Source of the DNA: an uncultured Pelagibacteraceae bacterium
GTDB lineage: Bacteria; Pseudomonadota; Alphaproteobacteria; Pelagibacterales; AG-422-B15
DNA length: 64,000 nt
Assembly: GCA_902521655.1 (NCBI GenBank)
Contig: CABYSM010000002.1
Span: forward strand, 1 to 64,000
Direction: 5' to 3'
Shown one piece after another: positions 4,545-14,373 of this stretch. The position numbers were made by a program, and so were the translations under genes. The stretch's first letter is position 1. Each line of letters begins with the position of its first letter. The notes below the pieces were generated by a model. That model worked only from the letters and a program-made list of their open reading frames with translations, was not told the DNA's origin and ran no database searches.

Positions 4545-5258
4545 ATGGCTCGTATTACCGTTGAGGATTGCATAAAACTTATTAATAATCAGTATGATTT
4601 GGTTATTCTTGCTAAAGAAAGAGCAGTTCAATTGGGTAGAGGAGCTACTCCAGCTGTTGACCCTGAAAACGACAAGAAGCCTGTAATAGCGCTCAGAGAA
4701 ATCAGTGAATCTAAGATTACAGCCGAAGAGCTAAAAGAAAGTATTGTTTCTAAACTAAGACAGATTCCAGATTATGAAGAAGAAGAGGAATTAGAGGAAG
4801 TGGATAATGATACGTTTAGACAGATGTATCAAGGCGGATTGTCCAAATCAGAAATGGAAAAATCTGCAACACGTAAATTTACTGCAAGATCCCCTAGAGT
4901 TGAAACGAGAGCTAAGCCAATTGAAGATATGGTAAGTGATGATGAGGCCTCACCTTTGAGTTCAGCGGGTATAAATGAAACCCCAGATCTTAATGAAACC
5001 CCAGATCTTAATGAGACTCAGGATGTATTAGATACATCAGAAGTTGAATCTCCAATTATGGAAGGTATTGAAACAGCTCACGAGGAAACAACTGATCAAA
5101 CTACAGTTGATCCAATTGAGGAAAACCAACCTTCTGAAGAAGAAAGTTTTGCTGCAAGTGATCAGCTAGAAGATAACAATGAAAATGAAGTTATTAATGT
5201 TGAAGAGTTGCCTGAAGTTACATCTGACATTGAAGAAGACAATCCTCCTAAAGAATAA
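4545..5258 (+). CDS. rpoZ: DNA-directed RNA polymerase omega subunit with long acidic C-terminal extension
   Basis: N-terminus MARITVEDCIKLINNQYDLVILAKERAVQL..VIALREI is canonical omega; it is followed by about 150 residues rich in D/E. Confidence 0.9.
   Translation: MARITVEDCIKLINNQYDLVILAKERAVQLGRGATPAVDPENDKKPVIALREISESKITAEELKESIVSKLRQIPDYEEEEELEEVDNDTFRQMYQGGLSKSEMEKSATRKFTARSPRVETRAKPIEDMVSDDEASPLSSAGINETPDLNETPDLNETQDVLDTSEVESPIMEGIETAHEETTDQTTVDPIEENQPSEEESFAASDQLEDNNENEVINVEELPEVTSDIEEDNPPKE
4974..5027 (+). repeat. in-frame 18-bp tandem repeat inside rpoZ (NETPDL/NETPDL/NETQDV)
   Basis: aatgaaaccccagatctt occurs twice, identically, followed by a diverged third unit aatgagactcaggatgta. 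Confidence 0.9.
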
Positions 5259-5263
5259 TTACC

Positions 5264-6394
5264 ATGAACTTTGACTTTTCAGATGATCAAAAGCTTTTGC
5301 GCGATCAAGCTAGAAAGTTTTTACAAGATAAATGCGACCGTAAGTCTGTAAGAAGTATTCTAGAAGATAATCAGAAAAACTATGATGCTGATCTTTGGTC
5401 TCAAATTTCTGAATTAGGTTGGACTGGTACTGCAATACCTGAAGAATATGGAGGACTTGGTCTAGGTATGTTGGAATTGTGTGTAATAGCTGAAGAGCTA
5501 GGCAGAGCTCTTGCGCCTACACCATTTTCTTCTTCGATATATATCTTTGCTGAATTTTTAAAATCGTATGGTACGGATGAACAAAAGAAAAAATATTTAC
5601 CACACATTGCATCTGGTGAAAAAATTGGGACATTTGCTTTATCAGAAACTAATGGGAAACCAAAACCCAACAATATCAGGACACAGCATGCTTCAGGTAA
5701 ATTAAATGGATCTAAAAATCCCGTTTCTGATGGAGAGTCAGCAGACTATATCATTGTTGCAGCAAATTCTGACAGTAACTCAAATTATAATTCTCTCTCA
5801 CTTTTTATTATTGATAGAAATGATCCAGGCTTAAATATTTCAAACTTAGACACCATCGATCCCACGAGACCAGCTTGCACATTAGATTTGAAAAATGTTG
5901 CATGTGAAAGACTCGGAGACGAAGGAAGTGGCTGGGAGATGATTGATAATATTTTTAATAGAGCAGCTGTTTTATTCTCTTTCGAGCAAGTGGGTGGGGC
6001 ACAAGTCTCACTTGATGAAGCAAAAAAATATTCACTTGAGCGATTCGCTTTTGGAAAGCAGATAGGTGCTTTTCAAGCTTTAAAGCATAAGATGGCGGAC
6101 ATGTACGTCAAAATTGAATTAGCAAGATCTAATGCCTACTATGGTGCCTGGGCACTAAGCACAGATTCAAATGAATTGCCAATTGCCGCTGCTGGTGCAA
6201 GAGTGAGTGCCTCGGAAGCTTACAATTACGCGTCTCAGGAAAATATTCAAATACATGGAGGTGTTGGTTTTACTTGGGAATATGATTGCCACTTGTTTTA
6301 TCGTAGATCCAAACTACTTTCTTTAAATATTGGTAGTATTCGTCAGTGGAAAGAAAATTTAATTTCAAATCTTGAAAAAAGGAATATAGTTTAA
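5264..6394 (+). CDS. acyl-CoA dehydrogenase (small-subunit-like)
   Basis: FDFSDDQKLLRDQARKFL, ELGWTGTAIPEEYGGLGLG, KHKMADMYVKIELA, QIHGGVGFTWEYDCHLFYRR. Confidence 0.9.
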   Translation: MNFDFSDDQKLLRDQARKFLQDKCDRKSVRSILEDNQKNYDADLWSQISELGWTGTAIPEEYGGLGLGMLELCVIAEELGRALAPTPFSSSIYIFAEFLKSYGTDEQKKKYLPHIASGEKIGTFALSETNGKPKPNNIRTQHASGKLNGSKNPVSDGESADYIIVAANSDSNSNYNSLSLFIIDRNDPGLNISNLDTIDPTRPACTLDLKNVACERLGDEGSGWEMIDNIFNRAAVLFSFEQVGGAQVSLDEAKKYSLERFAFGKQIGAFQALKHKMADMYVKIELARSNAYYGAWALSTDSNELPIAAAGARVSASEAYNYASQENIQIHGGVGFTWEYDCHLFYRRSKLLSLNIGSIRQWKENLISNLEKRNIV

Positions 6395-10045: not shown

Positions 10046-10087
10046 TTTAAGTGTTGCGTATTTTTAAAGAATATAACATATTTATAT

Positions 10088-10245
10088 CGTTGGTTCACGT
10101 AAAGTGAATAACAGGGAATAAGGTTTAAATCCTTAGCTGTACCCGCAACTGTAAATCCAGAGTTTGAATACAGATGCCACTGATTTTATTGGGAAGGCGT
10201 ATTCAAATTTTGACGGAGAAGTCAGGAGACCTACCAACAAAACAT
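10088..10245 (+). promoter_or_regulatory. cobalamin (AdoCbl/B12) riboswitch
   Basis: Ordered conserved blocks: aacagggaataagg, ctgtacccgcaactgtaa, gccactg, gggaaggc, gaagtcaggagacctacc. Located directly upstream of a TonB-dependent receptor. Ends approximate. Confidence 0.93.
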
Positions 10246-10318
10246 AGTCATCCACACGTGATCGGGATAATCATTTGGGCACAATTTGTTTGCGGTGACT
10301 TCAAACTGGAGGCAAAAT

Positions 10319-12565
10319 ATGACTAAAAAATTAGTACTATCTGTATTTATATTTATAACTTTAATTAGTAATTTAAGTGCTGAAACACCAGAGATTCTAA
10401 TAAACCCGAGCAGCGAAGAATATACTAGGTTGTCATCTGGTTTATCTGGATCAAACATAACTATTGTAAGTAAAGAAGATTTAAAGACACAGTATGGAAA
10501 AAACTTACCCCAAATATTAGAAACCTATTCAGGAATTAATGTACGCCGTCTCTATGATGGTGTTGGTGGAACAAACTCATCATTAGACATAAGAGGATTT
10601 GGTGAAGCATCTAAATCTAATTCATTAATCTTAGTTAATGGTATTCGGTTGAATGATATTGATATGTCTAATGTAAATTTATCAAACATACCCATTGATT
10701 CCATTGAAAGGATTGAAATCATTAGGGGAGGTTCGGCAGGAACATTGTATGGTTCTGGGGCGATTGGTGGAGCAGTAAATATAGTTACCACAAATGATGT
10801 TTTGCAAAATCGTGGTGAACTATCCTTTGGATCATATAACAAAATAGGCGCTGACTTTTCATTGAGTAATCAATTTGGTGAAAAAGGAGTAGTTTCTCTA
10901 TCAGGATCTGGGTTTTCAAGCGATACCTTTCGTAATGCAGCAGATTATTTAGATGAAAACTTTATTTTGAATGTTAAAAATATTTTTGATCAAACTAAAA
11001 TTAATTTAGATATTTTTTCATCTACCAGAGAACAAGATTTGCCAGGACCTCGAGTAAAAGGAGGTGCTGTTTATAATTATCATTTTTGCAATCGGTATGA
11101 AGATAGTAAGACTGCAAAACATATTGGCGGATCTTTCGCTTCAAACGGAGATACATGCAACATTAATCAAAGAGATGATTATTCAAACTTAGAAAATGAA
11201 AGAATAAATTTAGGTATTCTTCAAGAAATTGATAAAATAAACAAAATTTATCTGAATATCGGGTATAAGAAAAAAAACAATAAAGCTTTTCTTGCTGCCA
11301 ATGGCAATACGAAAGAAACTGCAAATGATGGTGATAGATATCTAAACACAACAATTGATGGAAACATTTATAATGCCAGATATGAAGCTAGAAACATTGA
11401 AGAGGCGTATACAAATATTTTAAGTATTGGTTTAGATCACGCGCACAGTTTTTACGACTCAAAACGTCATAGAAAAGAAGATGAACCAGTGGGACAAAAT
11501 TATGATGCTGATCTTAAAGTTCAGTCTCTGTACTTTCAAAATACAACATATTTAAATGAAATAGATACTTCTTTATCATTTGGATTGAGATCTGAAGAGT
11601 CTGAGTTTGGCGCAAGAGACGAGGTCAATAGGACTGTATCAGGTTTTATAGAATCCTATGAGGCAACTGACCACGATACGTTAAACAGTTCCAGTACAAA
11701 TCAAGCCTTGAATTTTGGTATAGAAAAAAAAGTAGACAAAAACTTTTCACTTTACGGTAATTATTCTGAATCCTTTAGAATACCAAATATTGATGAAAGA
11801 ATCTTAGCAACTACGAGTGGTTCGTTTGCACTTAAGGACCAGGTGTCAGATGGAATTGAGCTAGGAATTATTTACTCAAACGAATTCGTTAACTTCAATA
11901 TTAATTACTTTGAAATTGATACTTTAAATGAAATTCAATACGATCAATCTGTAAATACAAACCTCGATCCTATCAAGCGTGAGGGCATTAATTTTGATTT
12001 TGAATTACAACCAGACAATAAAAATAAATTTTTAGCATCAATTGGCTATGTAAATGCTGAGTTTACCAGTGGGACTCTATCTATGGGCACTGGTTCTTAT
12101 GAATATTTCGGAACACGTTATTACAATAATAATGAAACTTATGGTTATTTGACTAACACTGCAGTAAATTATCTAGGTTCTGATGGCACAGCAAATCAAT
12201 CAATAAGCTTAGCAGGACGAAAAGTACCATTGGTCTCTCCATTGACATACAATTTAAATTATATTCGACAGTTAGATAATAATATCGATTTAAATGTGGG
12301 CATTAATTATACAGATAAAAAATATGTTTCTAATGATCAGGAAAATATTGAACCACAAATCCCTGATTACTATATTGTCAATTCATCATTAAGTTCAATA
12401 AATGGACCATACATTTTATCGTTTGGGGTAAATAATATGTTTGATGAGCAAATCTATGATTTTGCAGTTTCAAGTACTTTTCATGATGATGCTCATTATG
12501 GATTATCCAATGTATATCCATTACCAGGTAGAAATTTGTTTTTTAATTTAGGATATACTTTTTGA
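10319..12565 (+). CDS. TonB-dependent outer-membrane receptor, probable BtuB-type cobalamin receptor
   Basis: Signal peptide MTKKLVLSVFIFITLISNLSA, plug domain (LPQILETYSGINVRR, IERIEIIRGGSAGTLYGSGAIGGAVNIVT), terminal F. Start moved to the ATG preceded by ggagg rather than the ORF-track 10286. B12 specificity inferred from the riboswitch. Confidence 0.9.
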   Translation: MTKKLVLSVFIFITLISNLSAETPEILINPSSEEYTRLSSGLSGSNITIVSKEDLKTQYGKNLPQILETYSGINVRRLYDGVGGTNSSLDIRGFGEASKSNSLILVNGIRLNDIDMSNVNLSNIPIDSIERIEIIRGGSAGTLYGSGAIGGAVNIVTTNDVLQNRGELSFGSYNKIGADFSLSNQFGEKGVVSLSGSGFSSDTFRNAADYLDENFILNVKNIFDQTKINLDIFSSTREQDLPGPRVKGGAVYNYHFCNRYEDSKTAKHIGGSFASNGDTCNINQRDDYSNLENERINLGILQEIDKINKIYLNIGYKKKNNKAFLAANGNTKETANDGDRYLNTTIDGNIYNARYEARNIEEAYTNILSIGLDHAHSFYDSKRHRKEDEPVGQNYDADLKVQSLYFQNTTYLNEIDTSLSFGLRSEESEFGARDEVNRTVSGFIESYEATDHDTLNSSSTNQALNFGIEKKVDKNFSLYGNYSESFRIPNIDERILATTSGSFALKDQVSDGIELGIIYSNEFVNFNINYFEIDTLNEIQYDQSVNTNLDPIKREGINFDFELQPDNKNKFLASIGYVNAEFTSGTLSMGTGSYEYFGTRYYNNNETYGYLTNTAVNYLGSDGTANQSISLAGRKVPLVSPLTYNLNYIRQLDNNIDLNVGINYTDKKYVSNDQENIEPQIPDYYIVNSSLSSINGPYILSFGVNNMFDEQIYDFAVSSTFHDDAHYGLSNVYPLPGRNLFFNLGYTF

Positions 12566-12589
12566 TTATTAAAAGTTATAAAATGAGAT

Positions 12590-13105
12590 ATGAAGCTTAA
12601 TAGCCATTTAATAACAGGGTTTGTTATAATATTAATGCTAGCTTTAAGCAGGCTTATACCACATCCACCCAACTTTACGCCAATACTTGGAATGGCTGTA
12701 TTTTCTGGTGCTATAATTAATCACAAATTAGTAGCTTATATAATTCCTTTAGCTGCTATGCTTCTTAGTGATTTGTACTTAGGTTTTCATGCAAGTATGC
12801 CGATAATATATTTTTCTTTAGCAGTGTGCGTTCTTATAGGAACACTAATTGAGTCAAAAGTATCAATTCTAAACTCTATTTTAAGTTTAAGTTTTGGTGT
12901 GCTTTTATTTTTTTTAATAACAAACTTTGCAGTATGGTATGGATCAGGAATGTACGAGTTTAATATTTCAGGTCTCATGACTTGCTACTTGATGGGGCTG
13001 CCTTTCGTTCAAAACACATTTATTTCAAGTATTTTGTATGGAATGGGAGCTTTCTTAATCTATGATATCATCAATAAGCAGAGGATTTTTGGCAATAATG
13101 CTTAA
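12590..13105 (+). CDS. DUF6580-like integral membrane protein, possibly a vitamin B12 transporter component
   Basis: RLIPHPPNFTPILGMAVFSGA motif, multiple hydrophobic helices; 24 nt downstream of the B12-regulated receptor. Confidence 0.7.
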   Translation: MKLNSHLITGFVIILMLALSRLIPHPPNFTPILGMAVFSGAIINHKLVAYIIPLAAMLLSDLYLGFHASMPIIYFSLAVCVLIGTLIESKVSILNSILSLSFGVLLFFLITNFAVWYGSGMYEFNISGLMTCYLMGLPFVQNTFISSILYGMGAFLIYDIINKQRIFGNNA

Positions 13106-13170: not shown

Positions 13171-14373
13171 ATGGATACAGCATTTTCAAGTGAAGATTTA
13201 AAATTTCAATCTGACGTAAGAGAATTTATTTCACACAACTACCCAAAAGAACTGAAAGACTCAATCGGTACAAAAAGAAAAACTGGAAAAGAGTTGTCCC
13301 GCGACGACTTAATGTCTTGGCATAAAATCTTAGGTAAACACAATGGCTGGTCAGCACCTGGATGGCCTAAACAGTATGGTGGAGCAGAATTTTCTCCAAC
13401 GCAAAAATATATATTTGAGCAAGAGTGTGCTCGAGCTGAATGTCAATACATAATGCCTTTCGGTGTTAATATGGTTGGTCCAGTTATTTATACATTTGGC
13501 AATGACGAACAAAAAGCAAAACATCTTCCAGGAATTCTAAGTGGAGATGTATTTTGGTGCCAGGGATATTCAGAGCCGGGGTCAGGTTCTGATTTAGCAT
13601 CTCTTAAAACAAGTGCAGTCAAAGAAGGTGATCATTATGTTGTTAACGGTCAAAAAACTTGGACTACTCTTGCACAGCATGCAGATTGGATTTTTTGCCT
13701 AGTAAGAACAAACCCAGATGCAGAAAAACCTCAACAGGGAATCTCATTTCTTTTGATTGATATGAAAACTCCAGGCATCACTGTTCGCCCAATCAAGCTT
13801 ATGGATGGATCTCATGAAGTTAACGAAACCTGGTTTGATAATGTAAAGGTACCAGTTGAGAATCTAATTGGACAAGAAAATATGGGCTGGACTTACGCGA
13901 AATTTTTATTAGCACATGAAAGATCAGGCATTGCGGGTGTAGCGAGGTCTAAAAAAGCTTTAGAAAGAATAAAGCAAATTGCTAGTGCCGAGATGTCTTA
14001 TGGTGAACCATTAATACAAGATCCAGCATTTAAATCCAAAATAGCAAATGCTGAACTTGAGTTAAGTTCTTTAGAATATACTGAACTCAGAACTTTAGCG
14101 AAAGACTCAGCAGGTAAAGGTCCTGGGCCAGAGTCATCACTTCTGAAAATTAAGGGAACTGATATTCAACAAATGGTTACTGAACTTGCGATGGAGGCGG
14201 TTGGGTATTACGCCAACCCTCATTTGGGCACTACATTGAGTAATGAATATGTAGGACCAGATTATGCAACCAACTTATCAGGGTCATACTTTAATTTCAG
14301 AAAAGCATCTATTTATGGTGGCTCTAATGAAATTCAGAGAAATATTATCGCTAAGATGGTACTCGGATTATAA
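13171..14373 (+). CDS. acyl-CoA dehydrogenase, pimeloyl-CoA dehydrogenase large-subunit (PimC)-like
   Basis: WCQGYSEPGSGSDLASLKTSAVKEGDHYVVNGQKTWTTLAQHADWIFCLVRT and IYGGSNEIQRNIIAKMVLGL; strong resemblance to PimC-type ACADs. Confidence 0.88.
   Translation: MDTAFSSEDLKFQSDVREFISHNYPKELKDSIGTKRKTGKELSRDDLMSWHKILGKHNGWSAPGWPKQYGGAEFSPTQKYIFEQECARAECQYIMPFGVNMVGPVIYTFGNDEQKAKHLPGILSGDVFWCQGYSEPGSGSDLASLKTSAVKEGDHYVVNGQKTWTTLAQHADWIFCLVRTNPDAEKPQQGISFLLIDMKTPGITVRPIKLMDGSHEVNETWFDNVKVPVENLIGQENMGWTYAKFLLAHERSGIAGVARSKKALERIKQIASAEMSYGEPLIQDPAFKSKIANAELELSSLEYTELRTLAKDSAGKGPGPESSLLKIKGTDIQQMVTELAMEAVGYYANPHLGTTLSNEYVGPDYATNLSGSYFNFRKASIYGGSNEIQRNIIAKMVLGL

Follow-up and report, generated by a model that had tools for sequence, protein, structure and literature searches.

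A riboswitch-controlled BtuB-like receptor and a DUF6580 membrane protein as a probable minimal vitamin B12 uptake operon in a SAR11-order lineage, with related modules in marine viruses

In Escherichia coli, cobalamin uptake relies on the outer-membrane receptor BtuB and on BtuCDF at the inner membrane, and a cobalamin riboswitch controls the receptor gene. Smaller solutions to the inner-membrane step have also been described. CbrT (6FNP) is the cobalamin S-component of ECF-CbrT (PMC5997447) and requires an ECF module. BtuM of Thiobacillus denitrificans (8ovv) is a solitary B12 transporter: a small single protein with the S-component fold, which is linked to BtuB and has no ECF module. Its site includes H28, D67, C80, Y85 and R153, and Cys80 is both invariant and essential (PMC6072759). 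Cobalamin riboswitches of the class AdoCbl-II (AdoCbl-variant, RF01689) were listed just as 'Marine' when they were described (PMC2864571). Whether B12 regulates btuB in SAR11 has been stated to be unknown (PMC9296465).

How does the locus described here compare with these systems? It lies in a 64,000-nucleotide stretch (hereafter the window) of a contig from an uncultured Pelagibacteraceae bacterium. The genus is a SAR11-order lineage (Alphaproteobacteria, Candidatus Pelagibacterales), which the genome collection assigns to a family different from that of many near-complete genomes of 1.2-1.5 Mb of the same order. The locus consists of the following features:

10074-10252, forward strand: cobalamin riboswitch aptamer (RF00174; cmscan, 112.4 bits, model positions 1-189)
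10253-10318, forward strand: leader from the aptamer to the start codon, with GGAGG at 10308-10312; putative expression platform (from the sequence)
10319-12565, forward strand: BtuB-like TonB-dependent outer-membrane receptor, 748 aa, with signal peptide (Pfam, NCBIfam, PDB)
12590-13105, forward strand: DUF6580 (PF20221) membrane protein, 171 aa, S-component-like, proposed inner-membrane cobamide carrier (Pfam, AlphaFold2, Foldseek)

The riboswitch matches the full Rfam model with E 2.4e-27; its 112.4 bits compare with a gathering score of 31.5. The original prediction had recognised a full cobalamin riboswitch here, but placed its start at 10088, which is 14 nt late. Since the gene on its 5' side runs in the opposite orientation, the riboswitch heads its own transcript. 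It is presumably of the repressing kind, so that B12 would lower expression; folding of 10074-10336 gave z = -1.6, and a clear terminator was not seen in that segment. The receptor gene begins 66 nt past the 3' end of the riboswitch. A mechanical start at TTG 10286 was dropped in favour of ATG 10319, which is preceded by the GGAGG and opens a signal peptide, MTKKLVLSVFIFITLISNLSAE. Exactly 24 nt separate the receptor from DUF6580, as had been noted before, and an acyl-CoA dehydrogenase-like frame follows at 13171, 65 nt further on. The cobalamin riboswitch and DUF6580 were each found once in the window's own genome, which is 75.8% complete.

The receptor has both a Plug domain (PF07715, 84 bits) and a barrel domain (PF00593, 85 bits), which bears out its earlier description as a TonB-dependent receptor. 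Its top NCBIfam model is TIGR01779 (TonB-B12), at 89.8 bits and thus far under the cut-off of 599.7, and its top PDB match is BtuB (E 7e-16), over the plug region only. Because the cut-off is missed and the PDB match covers the plug alone, the protein is called BtuB-like and not BtuB. TIGR01779 is also the top model for linked receptors elsewhere, which score 163-269 bits.

The arrangement is a constant feature of the genus. A single DUF6580 is present in 32 of its 36 genomes and a single cobalamin riboswitch in 29; each of these riboswitches is on the same contig and strand as DUF6580, about 2-2.6 kb upstream of it. In the three DUF6580-positive genomes without a riboswitch, the contigs end before the riboswitch would begin, and the four genomes with neither element are incomplete. 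In all loci of the genus that were read, the receptor frame lies immediately next to DUF6580. The recurrence of riboswitch, receptor and DUF6580 in 29 of 29 riboswitch-bearing genomes excludes a chance association.

Is the association confined to this genus? DUF6580 is rare, being found above the cut-off in 9 of 385 genomes of a class sample and 4 of 399 of a phylum sample, with weak matches of 20-23 bits (G106, G544 and G687) left out. Receptor and DUF6580 are nonetheless adjacent in four bacterial families besides the window's own, so that five of the seven families in which DUF6580 was seen show a link to a BtuB-like receptor. The order of elements varies. In G624, from another class, and in G734, an RF00174 riboswitch (117.5 and 98.3 bits) precedes the receptor and then DUF6580. 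In G081 and G387, RF00174 precedes the receptor and DUF6580 is convergent, with the gene ends abutting or overlapping; a third member of that family, G212, has a partial receptor at the equivalent place. In G049, the receptor end abuts DUF6580 at the start of a contig. Two genomes of a sister lineage within the order, G036 and G039, carry an AdoCbl-II riboswitch (72-76 bits) ahead of receptor and DUF6580; their weak RF00174 matches were rejected as really being these strong AdoCbl-II elements. The presence of two riboswitch classes ahead of one gene pair speaks for selection acting on B12 control and against common descent of a single operon. No description of RF01689 controlling a receptor-DUF6580 pair, or of its carriage by phages, was found in the open-access literature.

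In families f51 and f56, DUF6580 has no linkage to genes for B12, and part of the protein family may therefore do something else. The DUF6580 gene of G112 has a purN-like gene and tRNA genes in its neighbourhood. The two f51 proteins (L055 and L056, from G326 and G231) are divergent, are encoded beside an M3 peptidase gene with no receptor or riboswitch next to them, and lack H25, Y122 and C132 of the window's protein; a different function is possible.

The window's protein matches PF20221 at 151.2 bits (cut-off 27) over model positions 3-157 of 162, so that its earlier designation as a DUF6580-like membrane protein stands. An AlphaFold2 model built with 34 homologues has a pLDDT of 91.6 and a pTM of 0.85, and its helices fit an S-component. 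The high-probability PDB matches found by Foldseek are S-components, and the highest TM-score belongs to BtuM with hydroxocobalamin (8ovv; TM 0.73/0.71, rmsd 3.6, probability 1.00, E 0.33). FolT, ThiT and RibU are well below it, at TM about 0.55-0.63. As the E-values are all weak (0.1-0.4, every one above 0.1), the argument rests on the TM-score and on how coherent the match list is. At the level of sequence, an hmmsearch of the PDB with the broader profile, A2, found no match to BtuM at E <= 10. The sole PDB chain matched by a DUF6580 profile is CbrT (6fnp), with E 1.2 for the first profile and a borderline 0.039 for A2 among 177,635 sequences; hhalign gives the pair a probability of 65%, and the motifs PN..P and S[DN]..LGF are common to both. 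The most likely role of DUF6580 is that of a solitary inner-membrane carrier of cobamides; the protein is S-component-like, related to BtuM in fold, and belongs to a separate family.

Could the protein carry something other than a corrinoid? Cobalamin riboswitches can also govern cobalt transporters, and CbiM of a cobalt ECF system (5x3x) is among the weaker Foldseek matches (TM 0.56/0.49). DUF6580 might thus bring in cobalt, a lower-ligand base or a precursor under B12 control, leaving the receptor as the sole corrinoid importer. We consider this distinctly improbable: in five bacterial families and several virus loci the partner of DUF6580 is a corrinoid-type receptor and not a set of biosynthesis genes, BtuM has the highest TM-score and CbrT is the only sequence match. 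Moreover, B12 brought in by the receptor would be trapped in the periplasm unless another inner-membrane route existed.

In 60 homologues, R21, N28, D61, G65, N112, V115, P138 and F139 are invariant. P24, H25, F107, Y122 and G128 occur in 58 of them, the exceptions being the two f51 proteins. Because the loss of H25 is confined to these two proteins without B12 linkage, H25 may serve as cobalt ligand or otherwise belong to the site. No cysteine is invariant among the 60, unlike Cys80 in BtuM: C132 is present in 56 (absent from the two f51 proteins and two others), and C80 of the window's protein in 17. The window's DUF6580 also differs from BtuM in having no btuR beside it. The operon is most likely BtuM-like in the way it works; membership of DUF6580 in the BtuM family is not claimed.

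Taken together, the operon probably forms a minimal two-membrane uptake system for cobamides (vitamin B12) that is subject to feedback by B12. The riboswitch would allow expression of the operon when the cell is short of cobalamin. The BtuB-like receptor, driven by TonB, would bring the cobamide across the outer membrane, and DUF6580, a protein of six to seven helices, would bind it at the periplasmic face and move it across the inner membrane. It would do so without BtuCDF or an ECF module, as has been proposed for BtuM, and the inward pull would probably come from intracellular binding or adenosylation of the cobamide. Transport by DUF6580, its substrate, its direction and its energy source are what we infer from these data. 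The original prediction of a compact B12 import module, with DUF6580 as permease or S-component-like binder, is supported by evidence that is genomic and structural in kind, and the fold is closest to that of BtuM. Compared with the E. coli system, which has a similar receptor under similar control, a single 171-aa protein appears to perform the inner-membrane step.

Do the carriers have another inner-membrane route? BtuC was not found in 59 members of the order, where FecCD matches are short (about 267 aa) and weak; one that was inspected proved to be a 265-aa ABC-3/ZnuB permease (228 bits, against 31 for FecCD) and was rejected as BtuC. Among carriers outside the order, a true FecCD occurs only in G624, in an apparent hmuTUV operon. 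The S-component fold, and the weak match to a protein that depends on an ECF module, would suit a DUF6580 that relies on a shared module encoded elsewhere. The ECF module was rejected as a partner: EcfT (PF02361) was found in none of 22 DUF6580 carriers, of which 16 have a completeness of 90% or more, and the same search was positive in 10 of 14 control genomes. Dependence on a shared module is thereby largely refuted and is extremely improbable, and it is here that DUF6580 departs from CbrT. The original prediction would have been refuted by a complete BtuCDF system elsewhere together with DUF6580 homologues mostly unlinked to B12 genes, and neither was found in the genomes searched.

A second alternative is that DUF6580 is an accessory that binds, decyanates or hands on periplasmic cobamide, the transporter being another protein such as the SbmA/BacA-like ABC_membrane_2 protein (330 aa). 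BtuM itself decyanates cobalamin (PMC6072759), mycobacterial BacA is reported to move cobalamin (PMC10960864), and ABC_membrane_2 was found in 13 of 22 carriers examined; among those from Pelagibacterales, it is missing only in the incomplete G000. This protein, however, is no less frequent where DUF6580 is missing, all 20 such Pelagibacterales genomes tested encoding it, and was not found in the tested carriers of families f25, f182 and f226. It does not follow the operon and was rejected as the B12-specific step. The S-component fold is, moreover, a carrier fold, and an accessory role is unlikely. Representative ABC_membrane_2 proteins (L076:1275-2270 and L077:1110-2084) have 324-331 aa and no ATPase domain, and occur in nearly all Pelagibacterales genomes searched.

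What would the vitamin be used for? The genus encodes a methylmalonyl-CoA mutase, which scores 1191 bits with NCBIfam against a cut-off of 876, together with another B12-binding protein that is mutase-like. Comparable mutase matches are absent from genus g3, which belongs to another family and almost entirely lacks DUF6580. G036 and G039 have the operon, yet a PF02310 mutase or MetH match was not found in them.

DUF6580 is also encoded by viruses, which the original prediction did not foresee. A pattern search of IMG/VR returned 69 contigs, 68 of which contain a DUF6580 frame. Of these, 32 have a receptor frame directly next to DUF6580 or overlapping with it, and at least three arrangements occur. 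The neighbours include genes for terminase, SSB, UvsX, tail sheath, major head protein, DnaB-like helicase, primase and DNA polymerase. In the DUF6580 tree the virus rows are not united (at least two label changes are forced), and the window's genus forms a clean clade outside them. DUF6580 was not found in the named phages and plasmids of the collections, nor was a convincing match to its fold among the BFVD viral structures; an AlphaFold model of a phage DUF6580 from one sequence reached a pLDDT of 54 and was discarded.

An AdoCbl-II riboswitch (72-93 bits) is present at the DUF6580 locus in 14 of 30 scanned virus contigs, a figure that does not count independent events, several of the contigs being near-copies. 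They are L079, L081, L083, L084, L086, L092, L094, L096, L101, L103, L107, L120, L137 and L142. In 13 the riboswitch is ahead of DUF6580, and in L142 it lies between DUF6580 and the receptor. A BtuB-like receptor is usually next, with none nearby in L120. The receptor of L079 matches BtuB with E 1e-29 over residues 72-616, nearly its full length. PHROG 5687, a group of unassigned function matched by L079:4523-6385 and L084:5447-7360, resembles BtuB-type TonB-dependent receptors.

Riboswitches have been called rare in phages, where the known marine examples are glutamine riboswitches (PMC9004378). A second phage lineage has glutamine (glnA) riboswitches of 44-51 bits about 500 nt upstream of receptor and DUF6580 (L085:2701-2748, L091:2706-2752 and L095:2699-2746). 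A freshwater-2 RNA motif (L095:5503-5577, 53 bits) stands directly 3' of a phage DUF6580.

Why would a phage import B12? Ribonucleotide reductase was rejected as a general reason. Its large subunit is present in 9 of 33 virus records, six of class Ia and two of the NrdE-prime type, and the B12-dependent NrdJ occurs only in the 479-kb L144. As phage reductases are mostly of class Ia, the vitamin is presumably destined for host enzymes. L144, the record with NrdJ, also has a 426-aa frame (5001-6281) that fuses DUF6580 to an N_methyl (prepilin-type) motif.

The phage copies might instead serve superinfection exclusion or receptor replacement and have nothing to do with B12 nutrition. TonB-dependent receptors, BtuB included, are phage receptors. 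A TonB-receptor protein of pelagiphage Skadi has been read as adsorption-related (PMC10504331). Against such a role are the AdoCbl-II riboswitches ahead of the phage genes, the presence of an inner-membrane partner among them and the nearly full-length match of the L079 receptor to BtuB, and we give it a low probability. It is fairly likely, rather, that marine T4-like phages carry their own AdoCbl-II/DUF6580/BtuB-like import operon, gained at several genome positions, and that it raises or guards the B12 supply of B12-scavenging hosts during infection. DUF6580 would thereby be a third small-carrier solution for the passage of B12 across the inner membrane, beside BtuM and ECF-CbrT.

Neither DUF6580 nor its carriage by viruses is mentioned in the open-access literature, subscription papers and preprints being outside the scope of that search. 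B12 is limiting for much of the ocean's microbial life, and SAR11 bacteria have been called B12-auxotrophic. The locus makes B12 regulation of btuB directly testable for one genus of the SAR11 order, and it gives the uncharacterised DUF6580 family a likely function. If the proposed role in phages is true, the marine viral module with its cobalamin riboswitches would add B12 import as a new class to the metabolic genes of viruses.
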